Under the pieces are notes generated by a model. It ran no database searches, was not told where the DNA came from, and saw nothing but the letters and a program-made list of their open reading frames with translations. A program made the position numbers and the translations under genes. A stretch of DNA of 38,372 bases from an uncultured Lachnospiraceae bacterium (GTDB lineage: Bacteria > Bacillota > Clostridia > Lachnospirales > Lachnospiraceae), in the NCBI GenBank assembly GCA_947626365.1, contig CANQRW010000029.1, positions 1-38,372 of the forward strand, given 5' to 3'. Shown here piece after piece: positions 23,691 through 34,422 of this stretch (positions are counted from its first letter, which is position 1; each line of letters opens with the position of its first letter).

Positions 23691-23763
23691 GCGCCCTTAG
23701 CTCAGTTGGTAGAGCAGTAGACTCTTAATCTATTTGTCCAGGGTTCGAGTCCCTGAGGGCGCA
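23691..23763 (+). tRNA. tRNA-Lys (anticodon CUU)
   Basis: The 73-base cloverleaf has a perfect 7-bp acceptor stem (GCGCCCT / AGGGCGC), a D-arm with AGCTCAGTTGGTAGAGC, anticodon loop CTCTTAA with CTT, and a T-arm with GGTTCGAGTCC. The discriminator is A, and CCA is not encoded. Its 3' half and downstream terminator are repeated at 25271 and, in decayed form, at 27321. Confidence 0.95.
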
Positions 23764-23813
23764 CGTAAAGTACTGGTTTTGCGGACGTATGAGCTGCGGG
23801 GCCGGTGCTTTTT
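23735..23813 (+). repeat. tRNA-Lys 3' end direct repeat, copy A
   Basis: This is the native copy: T-arm, acceptor 3' strand and the terminator behind the tRNA. It matches copy B (25271-25349) at all but about three of 79 positions. Confidence 0.9.
23769..23813 (+). terminator. Intrinsic terminator of tRNA-Lys
   Basis: The stem AGTACTGG (23769-23776) pairs with CCGGTGCT (23802-23809), allowing G-U pairs, and a TTTTT run follows. Confidence 0.7.
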
Positions 23814-23898
23814 CTTTATAGGAAATTCCGAGATTTGGGAAGGATTACAGATGTGGTAACAGGAAGACTCGGCTATGAACATTGGTGGAGTAAAGAGT

Positions 23899-24327
23899 AT
23901 GAGCGGAGAGAAGAAGCTGATCTATAATGTCATTGAGTTTAAAGTCAGCCCTTTTTCATACAGACTGGAGTTTAAAAGCAGGATTACACTGGTGCGGGGT
24001 GACAGCGCCACAGGAAAGACATACCTGTACCAGGTTATGGAAGATTTGAAAATGACAGAAGAATACAGTTGCATAAAGCAGTTTAATTATAAGAGTGAGG
24101 AATTTCACTCGGAGCTTAAAAGGTGCAAGGATAAGTTTATTGTAGTTGATAATGCGGATATCATTCTGGATGATGAAGACAGGGCATTTATCAATTTTGA
24201 AAAGAGTAACCAATACCTGCTCTTTTTACGGAATTGCGACGGATTAAATCTGTCAGCCGATAGTTTTATGATTCTGCGTGAGAAGGGATATCTGGTTACC
24301 TTGGAAAAGGAATTGGTGACAGGATGA
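23899..24327 (+). CDS. Small P-loop NTPase-like protein
   Basis: The roughly 142-residue protein has a Walker A motif VRGDSATGKTYLY (about residues 29-41) and a Walker B-like KFIVVDNADIIL (about 80-91), which is short for an ATPase. I do not recognise the family. ATG 23875 is in frame, but GGAG eight bases before ATG 23899 favours the latter. It overlaps the next gene by four bases (ATGA), so the two form a unit. It could be a sensor or nucleotide-binding subunit of an accessory system carried by the island; no function is assigned. Confidence 0.65.
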   Translation: MSGEKKLIYNVIEFKVSPFSYRLEFKSRITLVRGDSATGKTYLYQVMEDLKMTEEYSCIKQFNYKSEEFHSELKRCKDKFIVVDNADIILDDEDRAFINFEKSNQYLLFLRNCDGLNLSADSFMILREKGYLVTLEKELVTG

Positions 24328-24820
24328 AATATCTTTGGACGGAGGATCGAGGTGCCGGGCTGCATTTCTGGGAATTGGCGAATCAATACCTGTTCCAGAA
24401 CCGGCCGGCGGTTGAAAGTAAGTTCAGCAATCAGGGTTTGCTGGATGCGGTGAGGGCTTTGCGGCCGGAACCGGAAGGAAGGATAAAATTGCGATACGCA
24501 GGCATATTCTGGATGCGATAAAGGATCATAGGATAGATCTTGATGGTATCGAAGATGAAAAAGCCTTAGATTACGTAAAAGGGTTTAAGCGTTTTTCCAC
24601 GGAGAGAATCATCAAATCCCTTGCCTATGAATTGACGGATGGGGACGCCTGGAGCGTGAAGGGCGACCGGATGGGGGCGTGTTGGCATGAGGACTGCTGC
24701 GTTCTCGCTGTGCCGGAGCGTGCGCATTGTGGGATAGACGCCTTGTCCGGAGGGGAGAAAATGATGACTTTGTTACTGGATAATGAGACAAAACGTATTG
24801 TAAAAGATATCAAAGTATAA
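24324..24820 (+). pseudogene. Partner of the P-loop gene, split by a frameshift
   Basis: The first frame (24324-24521) encodes KYLWTEDRGAGLHFWELANQ and then runs out of frame near 24478. From about 24479 the -1 frame continues with coding character (IAIRRHILDAIKDH, GFKRFSTERIIKSLAYEL, IDALSGGEKMMTLLLDN) to a TAA at 24820. Joined, it would be about 165 residues. No slippery heptamer is visible at GGAAGGATAAAA, so a one-base loss or a sequencing error is likelier than programmed frameshifting. The family is unknown to me. Confidence 0.6.
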
Positions 24821-24884
24821 GTGATAGTGTACATATAGTGTACAAAAACGAAGTGCAGAGATATTTAGTCATCTAAGTCCAGAA

Positions 24885-25172
24885 TTGCGTCAGGCAACAA
24901 TGATGTATCCGTTCTTGACATTAGATGATGAGACAGAGATTGTACATTCTCAGATGCTGCCGGATGTAAGAGTGAGGGTATATATCGAGAAGCCAGATGA
25001 GAAAGACTGTTTCTACCATGCGACTTGCTACCTGCCCGGATATGAATGGGAAGATATCTATGGCTTTTCAGAGAGTGAGATGGAGCGATATCGGGAGATT
25101 GTCCGGTCAACGGCACACTTGGTTCTTGAATTTTCTCAAAAGGGAGGATTTGCAAATGCCTCAAATCGTTAA
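24885..25172 (+). CDS. Conserved-looking hypothetical protein of about 95 residues, start uncertain
   Basis: The frame holds MYPFLTLDDETEIVHSQML, CYLPGYEWEDIYGFSESEME and LEFSQKGGFANAS. This looks like a family I associate with mobile elements of Clostridia, with no known function. No ATG with a ribosome-binding site exists: TTG 24885 or ATG 24900/24903 are possible, and the open frame reaches back to 24828. It may be 5' truncated. Its end overlaps the DUF4160 start at 25156, as in paired genes. Confidence 0.5.
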   Translation: MRQATMMYPFLTLDDETEIVHSQMLPDVRVRVYIEKPDEKDCFYHATCYLPGYEWEDIYGFSESEMERYREIVRSTAHLVLEFSQKGGFANASNR

Positions 25173-25270
25173 GATCGGTTTTTATTGGGTGTATTTTGGT
25201 CCAATGAGGATCAGTTGAGTTTTATTGTTGAATGGCAGAATATGAAGATTAGCGGAGATTCAGGGCAAAA
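25156..25270 (+). pseudogene. DUF4160 gene, frameshifted and truncated at tRNA repeat B
   Basis: The start MPQIVKIGFYWVYF is typical of DUF4160 proteins (usual continuation: WSNE). After YF the frame is wrong. One extra T at about 25195 would restore WSNEDQLSFIVEW. The restored frame then runs into repeat B at 25271, so the gene is cut there as well. DUF4160 genes often stand beside DUF2442 genes in toxin-antitoxin-like pairs; no DUF2442 is visible. Confidence 0.65.
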
Positions 25271-25349
25271 TGTCCGGGGTTCGAGTCCCTGAGGGCGCAC
25301 GTAAAGTACTGGTTTTGCAGACGCATGAGCTGCGGGGCCGGTGCTTTTT
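25271..25349 (+). repeat. tRNA-Lys 3' end direct repeat, copy B
   Basis: This copy of the T-arm, acceptor strand and terminator stands 1536 bp after copy A and has no 5' tRNA half. The DUF4160 fragment ends at its left edge. Confidence 0.9.
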
Positions 25350-25627
25350 TTATGTGTTGAAAAATAATCCTTAGCTATCTTTTGGAAAAGGATATTGTTG
25401 ATGATATTTTAATTCTTAGTAAGTCTTATATAAAATCCCTCTTATTTATGCAATGATGAATTTTGCCGTATAGAAATTCAGTGGTGAAAGCTTGAATCGA
25501 ACTATGTTAAAAAACAGCAATCAATTGTATTTTTCTGGGCAAGATTCTTAAAATTCAGAATGTTATACTTGAATACAACAAAAAACTGAATTAAGCACAA
25601 CAAAAACTGAAAGGAGCGAACTGAAAC

Positions 25628-26275
25628 ATGAAAAAAAGCAACATCCATTTTGATGTATGCAATCTGCCGCTGAAGTACTTTGTACCATTTTTCGTAATGG
25701 TAATCATTGCGTCCTACCTTGGTTTTATACCAACGGTCGAGCTGGCAGACGGCCTGGTGGCATCGAACTATATTGCCACATTTGCATTCCTGATGTCTGT
25801 CGGAGGCCTCTTCTTCTGGCTGGGAGATACGATTCCTATTGTCAATAATTACCTGGGTGGCGCCTGTCTGCTGTCATTGTTTGGTATTTCCACATTGAAT
25901 TATTTTGGCCTGGTTCCGCAGGAACTGGTCCTGGGTACCAAAGTGCTGATATCCGGTGGCTTTCAAGATGCGTTCATGGCCTTCATTTTGGTTGGTTCTG
26001 TGCTTGTTATGGATCGCAAGCTCATCCTTAATGCCACAGCGCGCTACATTCCCACTGTCCTCGGCAGCCAGCTTTTTGCAATTCTTTTTGCCATGCTTGC
26101 TGGTGTTATCACCGGATTTGGACCGGTTAAAGCGCTGTTTGACATTGCCGCTCCCTGCATGTCCGGCGGTTCCGCAGGCGCCATTGCGACGCTTCCCAAG
26201 CTCTATAGTGATCTTTCCGGAACAGACCTGATGTCGGAAGCCGGTAAATTCCTCTGCTATGCTTCTATTGATTGA
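25628..26275 (+). pseudogene. 2-hydroxycarboxylate transporter (CitS/2HCT type), N-terminal half only
   Basis: The 215 residues match the first half of 2HCT-family sodium-coupled citrate/malate carriers: several helices, VGGLFFWLGDTIPIVNNYLG, LVGSVLVMDRKLILNATARY and the GGSAGAIATLP re-entrant-loop motif (family GGxG). Full members have about 430-450 residues. The frame ends with FLCYASID exactly where a LeuC-like fragment begins in another frame, so an internal deletion removed the second half. AAAGGAG precedes the ATG. Not functional as it stands. Confidence 0.8.
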
Positions 26276-26489
26276 GGCCGGAGCGATCATTCTGCAGACC
26301 GGATGTACGGTGTGTGTTGGAACGACCTGCGGTATTCTAAGTGCCGGTCAGACTATGCTTGGCACACATAACCGCAACTTCCTCGGACGATTCGGCTCCA
26401 AAGACGCGCTGGTTTATTTGGGTTCTCCGGCAACCGCGGCGGCTACAGCATTGACCGGTGTTATTACAAATCCGCAAAGCCTGCTTTGA
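26259..26489 (+). pseudogene. C-terminal fragment of a LeuC/aconitase-type dehydratase
   Basis: The 76 codons carry LIEAGAIILQTGCTVCVGTT, SAGQTMLGTHNRNFLGRFG and YLGSPATAAATALTGVITNP, the C-terminal signature of 3-isopropylmalate dehydratase large subunits and homoaconitases, with one cluster-type cysteine region. The roughly 330 N-terminal residues are missing. Homology begins near 26265, at the end of the transporter fragment. The stop at 26487 is followed in the same frame by the metallo-beta-lactamase fragment. Confidence 0.8.
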
Positions 26490-27209
26490 AAGAAGGGACT
26501 GCTTTCCCACATTCATTTTGACCATGCGCAGGATGTAAGCAGACTTATGGAAAAATTCCCCGGTGCCCGGCTGTTTGTGGGAGATCTCTCAACAGATCCG
26601 CTTTGCGCGTGGCAGCATATTAGCCTGAGTAATATTTATCGCGTGCATGGCGGAGAAGAGTATACTTTTGATGATGTAAACATTCAGGTTTTTTCAGGCC
26701 GGCATACGGAAAGTGCCAAAGGAACTTATCGCGATACTACAGTGAAAGGCGATTCCGCAAGTCTGAGCTACTGGTTTGGGTTTTTGGAATTGATGAATTA
26801 TTATGTTACTGTCAGCGACGGTACCCGTATTTTGGTGTGGGCGGGAATGACATCTCCTGACCAGAAGTATCGGCTGCAAGGCCTGAAACCTGATTTGGCG
26901 ATCATGCATTTAAGTCCCAAACAGGATCCATATATGTTGGCCGATCTGGTTAAGAGCATCGGCGCACAGGTCGTAATTCCACATCACCATGACCTTATTG
27001 GTCCTCTTGCGGAAAAGCACCCGGAGATGGTGGATCAAATGTTGTCCGCGCAAGCTAAAGACGCTTACTTTGTGGATGGGAAATTCAATAAAGAAGCCTT
27101 TATCGGTTATTTCAGCAGCGTACTTGAAGAGATGGTTCCTCATGTTAATATGATGGAACTAAAACACCACAAATGGTACCGCTTTGGGCTGGCATTTCAG
27201 CAGCTGTAG
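26490..27209 (+). pseudogene. Metallo-beta-lactamase-fold hydrolase, N-terminus missing
   Basis: Starting directly after the LeuC stop, the frame encodes the metal motif SHIHFDHAQDVS (HxHxDH) and continues with FSGRHTESAKG, WAGMTSPDQKY and VVIPHHHDL. This is the order of an UlaG-like lactonase or a related MBL hydrolase. About 60-90 N-terminal residues before the metal motif are missing. An ATG at 26547 lies after the motif, so any product would lack it. Confidence 0.75.
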
Positions 27210-27290
27210 CAAGCGTTGGTTTCCTCTGATTTCAAGTGCCGGTTCTTCGCTTTATTGCTGCTGTGATTCGGCCTGGTATGGTGTGAAAAA

Positions 27291-27345
27291 CGCCCTTAAG
27301 GGACTCTGAAACTGTTTATTCGGGTTTCGAGTCTCTGAGGGTGCA
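27291..27345 (+). pseudogene. Decayed tRNA-Lys pseudogene without D-arm
   Basis: The segment starts with CGCCCTTA, matching the tRNA-Lys 5' acceptor. It then jumps to GACTCTGAA (anticodon region) and continues with GGTTTCGAGTCTCTGAGGGTGCA. The D-arm of about 20 bases is gone, and several stem positions are changed. It cannot fold as a tRNA. Confidence 0.65.
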
Positions 27346-27365
27346 CGTAAAGTACTGGTTTTGCG
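27321..27365 (+). repeat. tRNA-Lys 3' end direct repeat, copy C (diverged)
   Basis: The segment matches copies A and B through the acceptor end and the following CACGTAAAGTACTGGTTTTG, with several mismatches. It then stops; the second half of the terminator is missing. Confidence 0.8.
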
Positions 27366-27455
27366 ATGCGAAAAGAGTTTCTTTGATATCCAAATGCGGG
27401 ACACTGAAGAAAAGAAATTGCCGGGCGCTGTGAAATAATGCGTCCGGCATAACCC

Positions 27456-28256
27456 TTAATTGACAGGCTGCTGAAGTTGCTTGTTCAGTTCCTCGATAAA
27501 CTGGCGGGACAAAGACGGAATGGATTTGGCAATTAAATCCACGGATACCCCATTGAGCAGTAAATTAGTTGCTGTCTGGATATGTTCCTTTTTGGTAGCT
27601 TCTTTAGCGAAATTAATCGCGTATTCCTGTACGGCCTGACACATAATCTGTACCCCCTTCTGATCTTCCTTAAAATATCTCACTCGGTTACAAAGCTTTA
27701 TAAAATTCTGGTGTTCTCCGACGCTGTTCTTGAAATACTGCATTAGCTCTGCGATATCGCTGTAATCATTCACTTCTGCATTTACATAAATTTCATGAAC
27801 CCCATTGTCCACCACAGAACCGGTTTCTTCGATTATCCGGTTGATATGGTAAATCGTCCGATCTTCCCCAAAGATGTCAAATTTGGAGATGAAAATAAGA
27901 TAAACGTCAGGTAGATCCTTGTAATCAAGTCCCTTTTCCACAAAGACGGTATCAATGTTTGAATGGTTGAATCGTACCCGCCGCTGGTGATCATCGTCAT
28001 CCGCCTTTTGAACCTCACAGTTGATGAGTGAATGGTCCTCATCCTCGCATAGCAGATCAAGGATTACGGAATGCGCGCCCACATTGCGAAGGAAGCGCTG
28101 AGTCTGACTATGGATGACTTTCAGATTGGGTTTTTCCAAAATGATTCGCAGGATTTCTTCAGCAACCGCTGGGTCTTCTGCCATCTTCTGAAAAAATATA
28201 TCATCTATGACATTCAGTTTGGCAATAACAGCCTTTTGTTCTTCGTAGGTCTGCAT
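27456..28256 (-). CDS. Rpn/PDDEXK-family putative transposase-type nuclease
   Basis: The 266-residue protein belongs to the Rpn-like PD-(D/E)XK proteins (PDDEXK_2). Visible marks are the start NVIDDIFFQKMAEDPAVAEE, the catalytic pattern VILDLLCEDEDHSLINCEVQ (Asp and ExQ) and a helical C-terminus (ATNLLLNGVSVDLIAKSIP). Rpn proteins cleave DNA and promote RecA-independent recombination; many clostridial genomes hold several copies. The length is normal and no break is seen. AAAGGA precedes the ATG. It lies between the tRNA-Lys debris and the damaged mod locus. Confidence 0.8.
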   Translation of the reverse strand: MQTYEEQKAVIAKLNVIDDIFFQKMAEDPAVAEEILRIILEKPNLKVIHSQTQRFLRNVGAHSVILDLLCEDEDHSLINCEVQKADDDDHQRRVRFNHSNIDTVFVEKGLDYKDLPDVYLIFISKFDIFGEDRTIYHINRIIEETGSVVDNGVHEIYVNAEVNDYSDIAELMQYFKNSVGEHQNFIKLCNRVRYFKEDQKGVQIMCQAVQEYAINFAKEATKKEHIQTATNLLLNGVSVDLIAKSIPSLSRQFIEELNKQLQQPVN

Positions 28257-28388
28257 ATGAAATCCTTTCGGTTCAATAAATAGCGTAAGTAATGTTGTTG
28301 TTTATAGTGTACCATGTCCTCCGGACATGATCCCTCCGGGGGATGCACACGGTTCGCTTGGGTGTCTGCCTTCCCTTTGGTCAGGCGC

Positions 28389-28483
28389 GAACCGGTGCTG
28401 ATATAATCTCTATCGAGATTATATCATAGAATTCGATGTATGAAAATAGAAATTTTCGAGCAGGAACCGGGCTGATATAATCT
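28389..28483 (+). repeat. Direct repeat GAACCGG(T)GCTGATATAATCT flanking 54 bp
   Basis: Copies at 28389-28409 and 28464-28483 differ by one missing base. Each contains TGATATAAT, an extended -10 element. The second stands directly before the truncated modA. Confidence 0.75.
28399..28426. promoter_or_regulatory. 12-bp-arm palindrome overlapping an extended -10, upstream of modA
   Basis: TGATATAATCTC (28399-28410), four bases, then its complement (28415-28426). The left arm contains an extended -10 (TGATATAAT). A repressor site covering a promoter is one reading, and a ModE-like molybdate operator would fit the neighbours. No regulator gene is visible to support it. Confidence 0.5.
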
Positions 28484-29198
28484 GAAAGAATTTAATTTGG
28501 AACATCTTACAGCGGCAAATTTCCGTACATCTTACATCTTACACACCTATAACGCGGACAGTTCCGGCACCCTTCTGACCCAGATCGAGGAAGGCTATGA
28601 GTGCGATATCTTCTTCTCTGCCGCCCAGAAGCAGATGAATCAGCTGGAGGAAGACGGATTTGTGGTAGAGGGAACCAGGGCCAACGTCCTGAATAATCAG
28701 CTGGTAGTGGTGGCGCTGAAGGACAGCGATACCAAGGTGACAGGACTGGAGAATCTGGGAGAGGCGGAGAGCATCGCCCTTGCCGGCGGCAGCGTACCGG
28801 CCGGAAAATATACGAGAGACGCCCTGATCAGTCTGGGAATCCTGGAGAAGACGGACGATTCCGCCAGCATTACGACTCAGCAGATTTCCGATGCCCTTGG
28901 CGGCGTGGAAATCAGCGAACAGGACAATGTGAGCAAGGTGCTGACGGCTGTGGCGGAGGGCTCCTGTGAGGTGGGAACCACCTACTATTCCGATACCTAC
29001 GGCTATGAGGATGATATCCAGGTTCTGGAGACCGTAAGCTATGACCTGACCGGGGACGTAATCTATCCCATCGCCCGGGTGGTCAATGAGGAAGCTGACG
29101 AGGCCCAGAACGCGGCAGCGGACGATTTCCTGGCCTATATCCTTTCCGATGAGGCCAAGGCGATCTTCGACAGCTACTATTTTGATACCGACGTATAA
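28476..29198 (+). pseudogene. modA: Molybdate-binding protein ModA, N-terminus missing
   Basis: The frame joins ModA homology at TYNADSSGTLLTQIEEG and continues through CDIFFSAAQKQMNQLEEDG, LAGGSVPAGKYTRDAL and DVIYPIARVV to a normal end. Molybdate-binding proteins carry a signal peptide and about 50-60 further residues before this point, including the first ligand loop. These are absent, and the open frame starts at a TGA (28473). The only starts are TTG 28497 or later, without a good ribosome-binding site. A product could not be exported or bind normally. modB and modC downstream look intact. Confidence 0.8.
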
Positions 29199-29293
29199 CA
29201 AAAGGATTGGTACCGGCGGTTAATAAAACGATGGGTACCGACGGTTAATAAAAGATACCAGCGTTTTGCAAAAAGGATACCTACGTTTAATAA
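29184..29293 (+). repeat. Tandem repeats derived from the modA stop-codon region
   Basis: Units related to GATACCGACGTATAA (the modA end) recur at about 29209, 29234, 29254 and 29276 with GGTACCGACGGTTAATAA-like sequence, 20-25 bp apart. They fill the modA-modB gap. Confidence 0.75.
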
Positions 29294-29312
29294 AGCAGGA
29301 AGGGAGACGGAT

Positions 29313-30017
29313 ATGGAAAATGTGGCGGAGCTGCTGAGAAATCTGGACTGGAGTCCGCTGTTTATCTCGCTGAAAACCGGGATCGTGGCGACGGTCATCT
29401 CCTTTTTCCTGGGCCTTTATACCGCCAGAAAGGTGGTGAAGGCCTCCCCCGGGAAAAAGGCGTTTATCGACGGGGTCCTGACCCTTCCCATGGTGCTTCC
29501 TCCTACGGTAGCCGGCTTCTTCCTGCTGCTTCTGTTCAGCAGGAGGAGGCCTTTTGGCATTTTTCTCTACGATCAGTTTGGGATCAAGGTAGTCCAGTCC
29601 TGGCTGGGCTGCATTACCGCCGCGACGGTGATCGCCTTTCCCCTGATGTACCGCAACGCCCGGGCGGCCTTTGAGCAGATCGATGTGAATCTGGTTTACG
29701 CCGGTCGGACTCTGGGCATGTCGGACTGGAAGATTTTCTGGACGGTGGTGGTGCCTACGGCCGGGCCGGGGATTGCCTCCGGGACGATTCTCACCTTTGC
29801 CCGGGCTCTGGGCGAGTATGGCGCCACCTCCATGCTGGCGGGAAATATTCCCGGCAAGACCGGAACCATTTCTCAGAAAATCGCCATGGTTATTCAGGAT
29901 GGAGATTACGGGACGGCAGGCGTGTGGGTGGCCATCGTTCTGCTGATCGCCTTTGGGGCCATCGTTCTTTTAAATCTGCTGTCCGGCAAAGCCATGAAGA
30001 ACGTGAAACGGTGGTAA
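29313..30017 (+). CDS. modB: Molybdate ABC transporter permease ModB
   Basis: The 234-residue permease has five to six helices: SLKTGIVATVISFFLGLYTA (about 20-39), LTLPMVLPPTVAGFFLLLLF, CITAATVIAFPLMYRNARAA, and the final pair near 165-225. The EAA loop that docks ModC reads ARALGEYGATSMLAGNIPG (about 164-182), the ModB form. The length is normal. GGAAGGGAG precedes the ATG. It delivers molybdate (or tungstate) into the cytosol with ModC. The missing ModA N-terminus leaves it without an evident binding protein. Confidence 0.92.
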   Translation: MENVAELLRNLDWSPLFISLKTGIVATVISFFLGLYTARKVVKASPGKKAFIDGVLTLPMVLPPTVAGFFLLLLFSRRRPFGIFLYDQFGIKVVQSWLGCITAATVIAFPLMYRNARAAFEQIDVNLVYAGRTLGMSDWKIFWTVVVPTAGPGIASGTILTFARALGEYGATSMLAGNIPGKTGTISQKIAMVIQDGDYGTAGVWVAIVLLIAFGAIVLLNLLSGKAMKNVKRW

Positions 30018-30087
30018 ATGAAAAATCGTGGCAAATGGAAAGCGGCGGCCCGCGGGAATCACGATTACAGGAAGGAGGAGACCCGGT

Positions 30088-31266
30088 ATGGAGATCGAGG
30101 CGAGGATTCGGAAATCTCTGGGGGATTTTAAGCTGGATGTGGAGCTGACCAGCCGGTGCGGCCGCATCGGCATCCTGGGCGCCTCCGGATGCGGGAAAAG
30201 CATGACCCTGAAATGCATTGCCGGCATTGAACGGCCGGATGAAGGGTTCATCCGGATCGGCGACCGGGTCCTGTTTGATTCCTCTTCCCATGTGGACATC
30301 AAGCCCCAGAAGCGAAATATCGGGTATCTGTTTCAGAATTACGCGCTGTTTCCCACCATGACGGTCCGGGCCAATATCGGAGCGGGACTGAAAGGAAGCC
30401 GAAAAGAAAACAGCCTCCGGGTGCAGGAGATGATTGACAAATTCCAGCTGTCCGGCCTGGCGGACCGGCTGCCGGGACAGCTGTCCGGCGGTCAGCAGCA
30501 GCGGGTGGCCCTGGCGCGGATCATGGCATACGAGCCGGATGTGATCCTGCTGGACGAGCCTTTTTCCGCCCTGGATGTGTTTCTCAAGGACCGGCTTCAG
30601 CGGGAGCTGATTGAGATGCTGGCGGATTATCCGGGGATCGTGATCATGGTATCCCACAGCCGGGACGAGCTGTACCGGTTCAGCGATGAGATTCTGGTCA
30701 TGGACAGCGGAAAGGCTGTGATACACGGACAGACAAAGGAGATTTTCGCCAGGCCCCGGTATCGGGAGGTGGCCCGTCTGACCGGCTGCAAGAATATCAC
30801 AGGGATCCGCCGGCTAGACGATCACACGGCAGAGATCACCGACTGGGGGGTCCGGCTACGCACGGAGAGAACCATTCCGGAGAAGGCCGCGGCCATCGGC
30901 TATCGGGCCCATGACTTTGTGCCGGTGTGGGGAAGCCGCCGGGAGAACTGCCTGAAATTCCGGCTGAAAAGCATAGCGGAGCTCCCCTTTGAGAATAATT
31001 ATTATCTCCTGCCGGAGACGGAACAGACTTCCCGGGCAGAAGGCGCAGATTGCGAAGCCGAGGATGTGGCTCACGAAGCCAGGAACACAGTTCACGAAGC
31101 GGTGGGCGCGGTTCCTGTGCCGGAGAACAGGACCTCCGGAGAAACGGAGCGGACCATCTGCTGGTTCGTGCAGCGTGACCGCCTGCCGGAACTGGAAGAA
31201 AGGGGAATGCCGGATTATCTGGAAATTCGGGAGGAGAAGATCATGTTCCTGGAAGACCAGGAATGA
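30088..31266 (+). CDS. modC: Molybdate ABC transporter ATPase ModC with an unusual C-terminal insert
   Basis: The 392-residue ATPase has Walker A LGASGCGKSMT (about 29-39), signature LSGGQQQRVALARI (about 132-145), Walker B VILLDEPFSALD (about 152-163) and the switch His in MVSHSRDE. The C-terminal part, where ModC proteins carry a molybdate-binding domain, holds a low-complexity stretch (about 307-354) with repeated AHEA/VHEA units (DVAHEARNTVHEAVGAV). That stretch is not typical of the family. The start at 30088 follows GGAGG; an upstream ATG (30028) lacks homology. It is encoded 70 bp after modB. Confidence 0.9.
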   Translation: MEIEARIRKSLGDFKLDVELTSRCGRIGILGASGCGKSMTLKCIAGIERPDEGFIRIGDRVLFDSSSHVDIKPQKRNIGYLFQNYALFPTMTVRANIGAGLKGSRKENSLRVQEMIDKFQLSGLADRLPGQLSGGQQQRVALARIMAYEPDVILLDEPFSALDVFLKDRLQRELIEMLADYPGIVIMVSHSRDELYRFSDEILVMDSGKAVIHGQTKEIFARPRYREVARLTGCKNITGIRRLDDHTAEITDWGVRLRTERTIPEKAAAIGYRAHDFVPVWGSRRENCLKFRLKSIAELPFENNYYLLPETEQTSRAEGADCEAEDVAHEARNTVHEAVGAVPVPENRTSGETERTICWFVQRDRLPELEERGMPDYLEIREEKIMFLEDQE

Positions 31267-31411
31267 CGAGAAGAATCGATTTTGCGGGTGACCGGGAATG
31301 ACGAGAAGAATCGATTTTTGGACGGCTGAGAATAACTGGAAGAACTGGTTTTGAGATGGTCAGAAATAATGAGAAAAATTAGTCTTTGGACGGTCAGAAA
31401 TGACGAATCGG
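31255..31411 (+). repeat. Tandem 34-35-bp repeats derived from the modC stop-codon region
   Basis: Unit 1 (31255-31289) spans the modC stop: GACCAGGAATGACGAGAAG. Unit 2 (31290-31324) is nearly identical. Units 3 (31325-31358), 4 (31359-31392) and partial 5 (31393-31411) are progressively diverged. The last contains the moaC ribosome-binding site. Confidence 0.8.
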
Positions 31412-31418
31412 AGGGAAA

Positions 31419-31898
31419 ATGGGACTTACACATTTTGATGAAAACGGGAAAGCGGTTATGGTAGATGTATCGGAGAAAGCGGACACGGCCCGGACGGCGA
31501 CAGCCACCGGTAAAATTACCGTAAATCATCAGGTATACCAGGCGATAACCGAGGGAACAGTGGAAAAAGGAGATGTCCTGGGCGTGGCGGCGACCGCAGG
31601 GATCATGGGGGCAAAACGGACCTCCGACCTGATCCCCATGTGCCACATCCTCCCCATCACCAACTGCCGGATTCGTTTTGAGATGAAGCCGGAAGAGTTG
31701 GCGATCCAGTGCTTCTGCACCGTGAAAGTGACCGGCAAGACCGGGGTCGAGATGGAGGCGCTCACTGGTGCAAGCGTGGCCCTTCTTACTATATACGATA
31801 TGTGCAAGGCGCTGGACAAGTTCATGCAGATCGGGGATATCTACCTTGTGAGCAAAACCGGAGGAAAAAGCGGCGATATCCATAATGAGCGGGCGTAA
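31419..31898 (+). CDS. moaC: Cyclic pyranopterin monophosphate synthase MoaC
   Basis: The 159-residue enzyme forms cyclic pyranopterin monophosphate with MoaA in molybdenum cofactor synthesis. It starts with [18 protein letters not shown], has the active-site MCHILPIT and ends with [28 protein letters not shown] and KTGGKSG. The length is normal. GGAGG stands close before the ATG. It follows modC with the repeat array between them and was probably in the same transcript. No moaA is in the window. Confidence 0.95.
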
Positions 31899-31998
31899 AT
31901 ATTATTGATATCTGTTCCGATATTTCCGAATGGTTTTGGACAGCTGATAATAACAGTTCCTGCTTTCGGATGAAAATACGTATTTTGCCCTAAAATTG

Positions 31999-32027
31999 TT
32001 TACACAATATAAAGCTTATGTTATGAT
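31999..32027 (+). promoter_or_regulatory. Predicted sigma-A promoter of the alpha/beta hydrolase gene
   Basis: -35 TTTACA (31999-32004) and -10 TATGAT (32022-32027) with a 17-bp spacer stand 69 bp before the start codon. Confidence 0.7.
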
Positions 32028-32095
32028 ATTATAGAAAGATGGACATCAGGATAAGCTGTATTGAAACGATATGAATGATTGAAGGAGGAATGAAG

Positions 32096-32953
32096 ATGGC
32101 AGGAACAAGAGACAATTATTTCCGCACAAGCGACAACGCGATCCTGTATTTTGAGGATCACAGTCCGGACAAGGGAAGCCCCATTGTGCTGGTGCCGGGC
32201 TTCTGCTGCAGCACCCGGTTTTTTGAAAATAATCTGGATGCCCTGGCAGAATCCCACCGGGTTATCAGTTTTGACCCGCGGGGTCAGGGCTGTTCTTCCA
32301 AGGGGCTGCAGGGCCATACCATCGAACGCAACTGCACGGATATTAAAGAGCTTCTGGATTATCTGGATGTGCGCGGCGCTACCATGCTTGGCTGGTCTAT
32401 GGCAGGGCAGTTCATCGTCAAGTATTTCGACATGTTCGGAGCTTATCGCATGAAAGCGCTGGGACTGATTGACTGTCCGCTGGGGGCTGCCTGGGATGAG
32501 CCCTGGAATGCCCACAGCCTGAAGGGATTCAATATGGATCTGTTCAATGAGCACCTGGCGATGTGCTATAACGGCAACGAGGGGTACTGCAATTTCTTTG
32601 CTCATATGATGTATGACGGCAATGACGATACGAAGATTGACTGGGCTACCAAAGAAATGATGAAGACTCCGCCGTGGATCAGTTTCGCCATCTACAGCGA
32701 TATGGTTATGCAGAACGGATATGAGCTATTGAAGAAGATTGATGTTCCCATGGTATTTTTCGGCGCCAATGGGCAGGTGACTGCCAACGGCAAGGATCTG
32801 GCGACCAAATGGTATCCTGAAGCGGCGGTTAATTCGCCCTACAAGGAAAGCTATCCATTTGAACATGGCGGTCATGTGTTCTTCCATTGTTTTGCCGATG
32901 AATTTAATGAGAAGCTGCTGCATTTTGTGGAGGCTGTAGATCGAAGAAACTGA
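32096..32953 (+). CDS. Alpha/beta hydrolase
   Basis: The 285-residue alpha/beta-hydrolase-1 type protein has IVLVPGFCCSTRFFE (oxyanion region, about 26-40), FDPRGQGCSS, the nucleophile elbow GWSMAGQF (about 100) and the histidine in FEHGGHVFFH (about 264). FFGANGQVTANG probably follows the strand near the acid residue, which is not obvious. It resembles haloperoxidase/esterase-like members; the substrate is unknown. Three ATGs compete (32075, 32090, 32096). GAAGGAGG is eight bases before 32096, which decides the start. Confidence 0.85.
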   Translation: MAGTRDNYFRTSDNAILYFEDHSPDKGSPIVLVPGFCCSTRFFENNLDALAESHRVISFDPRGQGCSSKGLQGHTIERNCTDIKELLDYLDVRGATMLGWSMAGQFIVKYFDMFGAYRMKALGLIDCPLGAAWDEPWNAHSLKGFNMDLFNEHLAMCYNGNEGYCNFFAHMMYDGNDDTKIDWATKEMMKTPPWISFAIYSDMVMQNGYELLKKIDVPMVFFGANGQVTANGKDLATKWYPEAAVNSPYKESYPFEHGGHVFFHCFADEFNEKLLHFVEAVDRRN

Positions 32954-33042: not shown

Positions 33043-34422
33043 ATGGCATTATTTGGAAGAAAACAGCCGCCTATGGAGATTGAAGAGGCCAAGAGGCTGG
33101 CGGAAAGCCTGGCCAGTCAGGAGAGCAGGAAACAGCGTGACAGCCGCGTCTGCTATGATCATCTGGCGGCACAGTTTTTGCTGCACTATGAAGGTGTGGC
33201 GTTGAAGATTTACATTGAAAACTTTAAGCGCATGAACGCTTTGTTCGGTCATGAATATTGCGAAGAGCTGCTGGATGAGATTTTGTCTTATTTGGAGAAG
33301 AAGAGCGGCTGCACGGTGTACCGTTACGTAGGCGTGGAATTTATCGTGATCATGAGAGGGAAGACCATGAGCGAGGCGGTCGATCTGTGCGAGCAGGTCA
33401 TCGAGCGCTTCAATGAAAGCTGGAGTATTGAAGGTACCGACTGCCTTTGTACCGTTCAGATCGGTCTCTGCTCTTATCCCGGTTATGCCACTAATGCAGG
33501 CGAGATGCTGAAATGTCTGGATCTTGCGGTTTCCATGGCTTCTGAATTGGGAAGCAACCAGTACATAGAGTATGACGGCGATATGCATGCCAAGTTCCTC
33601 CGCAGACAGGCGATTGCCAGATATATGAGCACTGCCCTTGCCAAGAACGAGGTGGAGGTTCGTTATCGTCCCACGTTTAATACAAAGACAGGACTGTTTA
33701 CCAGGGCGGAATTTTACATGCGGATATTCATTCAGGATGTCGGCATGGTGGGCAGCATGGAGTTTATTCCCATTGCAGAGGACACGGGCCAGATCCGCCA
33801 GGTGGAATACTATGCCCTTGACAAGGCGGCATCCATGGTTGCCCGCCTGATAGAGGAAGGCAAGGAATTTGAGTCCATCGCTATTCCCATTTCCACGGCG
33901 CTGCTCCTTCAGGGAGATTTCCTTCAGGAGGTATCGAGGGTCATTGATAAATATAATCTGCCGGCCGGCAAACTGGCAATCGAAGTGGATGAGTACGCGG
34001 CCAGCGAAGCTTATTCCAATATCGCGGGACGCCTTCAGGCCCTCTCATGGCTTGGCGTGGAGCTGATCCTCAATAACTTCGGCTCCGGAAGTTCTGCCCT
34101 TGGCAAGATTTTCGAGCTTCCTGTCGATACGCTGAAATTTAACCGGATGTTTGTCTGGGAGATTGAAAATAACCCCAAGTCGGCGCCGGTTATGGAAGCG
34201 CTGGTTCAGGTAGCTGCCAAGATGGATAAGAAGCTGATTGCAGAGGGCGTCGAGACTCAGAAACAGAAATGGTTCCTGGAGAATTGCGGCTGCATTATGC
34301 AGCAGGGATTCTATTATGCTCCGACGATGCCGGAGAGCCAGCTGCCGAAGCTGTTAGAGACTCCGATCGAGAATGTGCGCGGACTGGTAGAGCAGGAGAA
34401 GAAGGCTCTGAAGAGACGGTAG
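33043..34422 (+). CDS. GGDEF-EAL protein with both catalytic sites lost
   Basis: The 459-residue soluble protein has a GGDEF-like fold at about 50-190 and an EAL fold at about 195-440. The GGDEF signature reads YVGVEF, without the two glycines and acidic pair needed for c-di-GMP synthesis. In the EAL part the EAL signature is replaced by RAEFYMRI, and the metal-binding DDFG is NNFGSG. EGVET and the fold remain. It therefore should neither make nor cleave c-di-GMP but might still bind nucleotide or protein partners. No membrane helix is seen. A ribosome-binding site GGGGG lies before the ATG. Confidence 0.88.
   Translation: MALFGRKQPPMEIEEAKRLAESLASQESRKQRDSRVCYDHLAAQFLLHYEGVALKIYIENFKRMNALFGHEYCEELLDEILSYLEKKSGCTVYRYVGVEFIVIMRGKTMSEAVDLCEQVIERFNESWSIEGTDCLCTVQIGLCSYPGYATNAGEMLKCLDLAVSMASELGSNQYIEYDGDMHAKFLRRQAIARYMSTALAKNEVEVRYRPTFNTKTGLFTRAEFYMRIFIQDVGMVGSMEFIPIAEDTGQIRQVEYYALDKAASMVARLIEEGKEFESIAIPISTALLLQGDFLQEVSRVIDKYNLPAGKLAIEVDEYAASEAYSNIAGRLQALSWLGVELILNNFGSGSSALGKIFELPVDTLKFNRMFVWEIENNPKSAPVMEALVQVAAKMDKKLIAEGVETQKQKWFLENCGCIMQQGFYYAPTMPESQLPKLLETPIENVRGLVEQEKKALKRR

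Follow-up and report, generated by a model that had tools for sequence, protein, structure and literature searches.

In the tRNA-gene islands collected by Islander, as set out in the parts of that report cited here, an intact tRNA gene is followed by a displaced fragment of its own 3' end on the same strand and an integrase gene is required inside the interval; anticodon-centred sites were recorded in 2083 of 3919 islands, and its table 1 counts 125 tandem arrays with two or more islands and 4 with three or more (PMC4383910). Accretion of decayed elements at one attachment (att) site has already been described as well, including at tRNA-Lys(CTT). The relevant sections of a review place IME_Sag2603_tRNAlys, together with a decayed integrative and conjugative element, in tandem at tRNA-Lys(CTT) of Streptococcus agalactiae, give the tRNA 3' end as its point of integration, and describe cis-mobilizable elements (CIMEs) as keeping both attL and attR (PMC5704250). 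Partial tRNA genes arising from integration are said to be widespread in a passage of a further source (PMC9897764). No report on tRNA-Lys elements of Lachnospiraceae was found in the literature searched, the coverage of which was limited to one collection. Herein, we describe a 38,372-nucleotide stretch of DNA from an uncultured Lachnospiraceae bacterium (the window), which is contig 29 (C29) of a 3.5-Mb draft genome (G000). It is a fresh example, in a Lachnospiraceae genus, of this known scar type: its tRNA-Lys(CTT) locus is very probably an accretion scar of decayed integrative elements.

The only tRNA gene of the window, called by both ARAGORN and Rfam, is followed downstream by two displaced copies of its 3' end in the same orientation (Table 1), an arrangement shared with the Islander islands. 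In a search of its own genome, the nearer copy (copy 2) was found to match 23735-23813 at 76 of 79 positions with an offset of 1536 bp (E 3.4e-31), just as a first-pass annotation, made from the letters alone, had described it (a second 3' end with terminator and about three mismatches). The farther copy (copy 3) corresponds to positions 30-93 of the tRNA locus with 55 of 64 matching (E 5.7e-15); the more diverged third copy claimed there is therefore present, although it begins at 27302 rather than 27321 and is 19 bp longer. About 20 bases of copy 3 lie past the tRNA 3' end, making its match specific to this locus, and the two E values exclude chance. The six own-genome matches comprised the tRNA, these two copies and three weak ones on other contigs (E 2.2e-7 to 1.1e-4, tRNA positions 4-78). 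Compared with tRNA 31-74 of the window, copy 3 retains 35 of 44 positions, with changes in the anticodon segment, and it ends within the terminator after TTTTGCG; by inspection, TTTTGCG recurs just past the terminator in genome G017, which would allow for a deletion between short repeats at copy 3. Unlike the Islander islands, the first interval (island 1) falls under the 2-kb limit of that collection and no integrase lies inside: none of the 13 PF00589 matches of G000 (E <= 1e-6) is on C29, in agreement with the earlier statement that no integrase remains, and no relative of the integrase described below occurs in G000 at E <= 1e-40. The combination that marks an integrative and mobilizable element, an integrase of its own with a relaxase or oriT, was likewise not found in the window.

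The origin of these copies becomes apparent from related genomes. Among the 25 genus genomes searched for the tRNA-Lys locus (G000-G024; G041 was added later), five (G002, G008, G014, G020 and G023) have a displaced 3' half whose first base is tRNA position 30/31, within the anticodon stem-loop, and G001 has one that starts at position 42. Over tRNA 31-74, the halves equal the window tRNA at 44 of 44 positions in G002, G008, G014 and G023 and at 42 of 44 in G020, where the half and the genome's own tRNA agree in the form of the acceptor stem. Two matches were left uncounted, a 42-bp fragment in G019 (C54; tRNA 49-90, 88%) and one in G009 (C40) that starts at tRNA position 29 on a contig edge; G041 possesses the tRNA-Lys with no displaced half among its three matches. 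A tyrosine integrase gene stands beside the half in three of the five genomes (G002, G008 and G023). Near-empty sites are also present: in G011, G018 and G021 a GGDEF/EAL gene follows the tRNA block after about 90-105 bp; in G004 the distance is roughly 160 bp and includes a short stretch resembling the element left end. The first-pass annotation had named two checks for its reading of successive integrations at one tRNA site, empty sites and integrase-bearing elements with the same end; that reading is supported by both, by the halves cut at 30/31, and by remnants of element right ends at both window copies.

The fuller relative is the element of G008, in which the tRNA, 19.6 kb of element and the displaced half share one contig. 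Nine of the ten scanned proteins in this interval have Pfam matches: a 463-aa tyrosine integrase (PF00589, 2.7e-16), helicase, resolvase, DUF5688, Rad52-like, YqaJ, DUF932, choline-binding repeats and a relaxase domain, the last in a protein of 166 aa. At E <= 1e-40, relatives of the integrase occur in 3 of 26 genus genomes, namely G008 itself, G023 (82%) and G002 (60%), and all three adjoin a displaced half; in an alignment of the three, the arginine, histidine and tyrosine residues typical of tyrosine recombinases appear to be conserved. Outside the G008 half, the flank can be aligned with the post-tRNA flank of the near-empty sites in G018, G021 and G011. Beyond the genus, the integrase had no match in viral contigs and none in 397 family genomes at E <= 1e-80, an absence that is uninformative for want of a positive control (among the genomes listed, the genus is represented there by G000 and G014, with 377 of the genomes unlisted), while 42 plasmid and 104 phage records matched at less than 60% identity (21 to 27% among the eight matches listed for each). 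With the window, the G008 element shares the site, the right-end sequence, the right-end gene orfC and the displaced half, but it retains the integrase, the relaxase domain, paired repeats and other cargo. orfC shortly precedes the displaced half in G001, G008, G014 (partial), G020 and G023; relatives of it also lie away from any displaced half (G008:C71, G015:C58, G022:C82 and G000:C53). In the G023 element, a ParE-type toxin gene and a small upstream open reading frame lie between integrase and orfC (L052:2632-3296).

Comparison of the element ends shows what the window copies have lost. The G008 element has a pair of TGTTGCAG units, spaced 11 bp apart, near each end: on the left it lies past the terminator, about 130 bp into the element, and on the right it precedes the core by about 120 bp. 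G020 shows the pair at both of its ends, G012 at the left end and G023 at the right; in G001 a single unit is left, and in G014 just a related one. Such pairs may serve as arm sites of the integrase. In G012, about 12.8 kb with left end and repeat pair separate tRNA-Lys from the EAL gene (L047:1619-14533, oriented). Behind the displaced half there is left-end-like sequence in G020 and also in G001, where it matches that of G002, which suggests tandem elements in these two genomes as well. In the window, TGTTGCAG has no occurrence on either strand. Right ends were compared by pairwise matches, the multiple alignment misplacing copy 2. The match of copy 3 extends upstream into the right ends of G008 (82.5%), G014 (83.8%), G020 (80.8%) and G023 (85.9%); it starts at 27286-27288 and is 78-80 bp long to G008, G014 and G023. 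At copy 2, right-end sequence (25242-25273), whose normal place is about 120 bp before the core, directly joins the core (from 25271), with about 133 bp lost relative to G023. The lost stretch comprises the paired repeats and tRNA 31-44, and this loss explains why the core had first been read as starting at tRNA position 45. Judged from their letters, copies 2 and 3 look like damaged ends of a G008-type element family, and since right-end sequence precedes each of them, the locus has the composition of a tandem accretion array. By eye, base pairing with the 3' strand of the acceptor region of the tRNA seems possible for the stretch directly before the core of a right end, ACGCCCTTAGGG in G023 (L052:3818-3836) or similar (27286-27302 in the window).

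The same relatives account for the terminator within the repeat. A core that includes the tRNA terminator had been regarded as unusual, which does not hold for this genus: in relatives, it starts at tRNA 30/31 and extends through the terminator, with within-genome repeats running from position 31 to 124 in G008, 31 to 119 in G014, 42 to 162 in G001, and 31 to 313 in G020, where similar left ends follow both copies. Such a core is to be expected: if the crossover lies in the anticodon loop, an element must supply the tRNA 3' half, of which the terminator is a natural part. For streptococcal tRNA-Lys elements, the direct repeats are described as overlapping the flanking intergenic region (PMC4701971). 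By the same logic, the 3' half of the intact tRNA-Lys(CTT) in the window would itself be element-supplied. Integration at the tRNA 3' end, as given for IME_Sag2603_tRNAlys in the sections of the review cited above, differs from this arrangement, in which the copies begin in the anticodon stem-loop (PMC5704250).

Altogether, integrative elements with a tyrosine integrase, probably mobilizable by conjugation, very probably used the anticodon stem-loop segment of tRNA-Lys(CTT) as their site of recombination. Each would have brought a replacement 3' half with terminator, which kept the tRNA whole, and would have left the former 3' half on its outer side. Islands 1 and 2 would call for at least two events, and a further segment perhaps for a third. 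Since the 3' end of the resident gene ends up on the outer side in site-specific integration, copy 3 would be the most ancient, derived from the resident gene, and by the geometry of the reaction the island 2 element would have brought copy 2. Later on, the elements would have lost their integrase and mobilization genes together with the repeats and the crossover sequence, and those of the window are probably no longer able to excise by this route; the islands thus look stranded, as had been proposed, with the crossover segment deleted at copy 2, copy 3 mutated, and neither integrase nor paired repeats left. The proposal that the farthest copy is the older fares less evenly: copy 3 is the most decayed, but the order comes from geometry, and the terminator-loop letters fit it badly. 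The letters of G041, which the tree places as sister to G000 (support 93/94), recur in copy 2 and not in copy 3, where the single such position left has a different letter; since copy 3 is much mutated, this conflict is weak either way. Several other observations weigh against the proposed history. The left end of island 1 is unmatched by the left ends of relatives in pairwise comparison; island 2 has no mobility gene and is unmatched by the tRNA-Lys regions of the 24 relative loci compared; no strain with just one window island, which would display the stepwise order, was seen among the genomes searched; the G002 element lacks both the TGTTGCAG pair and orfC; and G012 has element content and a left end, yet no displaced half was found there.

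Both cargo islands of the first-pass annotation were recovered, but the count was incomplete, as a third decayed segment lies beyond 27365. The GGDEF/EAL gene that directly follows tRNA-Lys at near-empty sites is found here at 33043 with an abhydrolase gene before it, and the inserted zone therefore spans about 23814-32060. In segment 3, modA is short of its N-terminal 107 residues, the alignments of modB and modC are full-length, and that of moaC begins at residue 18. The matching molybdate cluster of G023 ends beside a degenerate Lys terminator (G023:C175; 81% over 54 bp), which hints at a third integration, while by alignment no further tRNA copy was seen before the abhydrolase or EAL gene in the window. 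The abhydrolase gene follows the displaced half in G023 and, inverted, tRNA-Lys in G041. A repeat of about 118 bp at 28310-28429 recurs in many genus genomes, sometimes as two head to tail among the matches listed.

Table 1. Features of the tRNA-Lys(CTT) locus of the window, with paired tRNA-Lys loci of related genomes in the last row.
Feature	Position	Strand	Remark
tRNA-Lys(CTT), intact	23691-23764	+	Integration target; ARAGORN, Rfam; single tRNA of the window
tRNA terminator	23765-23813	+	Part of the repeat; repeated at copy 2
Island 1, decayed	23814-25270	+	Two gene pieces and orfC
nSTAND NTPase-like N-terminal piece	23875-24327		Island 1; Pfam E 4e-4, below cut-off
Gene piece	24465-24827		Island 1; 92% identical to G002:C242
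orfC	24885-25172	+	Island 1; right-end gene of the element family
Remnant of element right end	25208-25273	+	84% to G008; 25242-25273 97% to G023
Copy 2, displaced tRNA-Lys 3' end and terminator	25271-25349	+	Crossover segment (tRNA 31-44) missing
Island 2, decayed	25350-27285	+	Pieces of three genes
2HCT/CitS-type symporter, N-terminal half	25628-26275		Island 2
Aconitase/LeuC-type protein, C-terminal piece	26259-26489		Island 2
Piece related to G023:C200 protein	26451-27209		Island 2
Last bases of an element right end	27286-27301	+	Match upstream of core to G008, G014, G020, G023
Copy 3, displaced tRNA-Lys 3' end	27302-27365	+	Mutated; terminator cut short
PD-(D/E)XK (Rpn-type) nuclease gene	27456-28256	-	Adjoins tRNA-Lys in G017, G019
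Segment 3, molybdate cluster	28497-31907	+	modA, modB, modC, moaC piece
Abhydrolase gene	32075-32953	+	Taken as resident flank; common to G023, G041
GGDEF/EAL gene	33043-34422	+	Directly after tRNA-Lys at near-empty sites
Paired tRNA-Lys loci	L054:3245-3661; L058:3087-3462; L057:2995-5684 (oriented); L055:3278-7398		G007; G022; G010; G015

This composition bears on an alternative in which island 1 was the sole integration and everything beyond copy 2 is ordinary chromosome shuffled in by rearrangement. The missing mobility gene of island 2 would fit such a history, as would molybdate-cluster relatives of 86-90% on other contigs in G041 and G023, more distant ones in other genus genomes, and the abhydrolase resident in G023 and G041. 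However, a displaced tRNA end lies on either side of island 2, and an element right end is found at copy 3, which makes a single integration unlikely. A second alternative, that the whole tRNA-Lys gene was duplicated in tandem, two copies decaying and the intervening genes being acquired otherwise, draws on five genus genomes with two full tRNA-Lys(CTT) matches at the locus (G007, G009, G010, G015 and G022; those of G009 on two contigs), where paired genes lie 134 bp to 4 kb apart with differing terminators, and on the letters preceding copy 3 (ACGCCCTTA), which resemble a tRNA 5' end. Relatives with the same three copies and tandem genes between them had been named beforehand as the finding that would favour duplication, and none of the five shows the window's arrangement. 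Moreover, the match of the ACGCCCTTA letters to the element right end of G023 and others is 15 bp longer than that to the tRNA, and copy 2 is preceded by element right-end sequence and no 5' tRNA half. Tandem duplication was rejected as the source of the copies, and is very improbable, given halves cut at tRNA 30/31 in five genomes, three of them beside an integrase. Least probable is a CIME whose copies could still be used as att sites by an integrase from elsewhere: the tRNA end (attL core) is intact and related integrases exist in the genus, but the far sites are damaged, the crossover segment being absent from copy 2 and altered in copy 3 (35/44 by sequence), and the window has no paired repeats and its genome no related integrase at E <= 1e-40, whereas a CIME, in the cited sections of the review, keeps both sites (PMC5704250).

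The repeated supply of 3' halves by elements has a possible consequence for the tRNA gene itself. Positions 1-123 of the tRNA locus are identical in G000, G002 and G017, three species with trmB+trx identities of only 74.5% (G000-G002), 71.0% (G000-G017) and 74.9% (G002-G017). In a test of twelve genomes, with alleles labelled by eye and a short loop as the informative stretch, this allele required 3 changes on the trmB+trx tree, no fewer than shuffled labels (mean 2.8; 500/500 as low), and it therefore does not track the hosts. Two counts weigh on the other side: allele C forms a cluster (2 changes against a shuffled mean of 4.1; 24/500 as low), and all five alleles together require 5 changes (shuffled mean 6.6; 11/200 as low), so that the alleles partly track their hosts. 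We accordingly put forward, with chances slightly short of even, the idea that the 3' half and terminator of tRNA-Lys(CTT) in this genus are mobile DNA, replaced repeatedly, with alleles moved between species. If true, the end of the tRNA-Lys(CTT) gene would be decoupled from host history.

For the genus, the locus documents a hotspot in which near-empty, full, tandem and fossil states represent decay stages of integrative elements, and it shows that long direct repeats including the terminator follow from anticodon-loop integration. Furthermore, with the allele identical in three species, the rewriting of a tRNA gene end by elements can be tested on a small scale.

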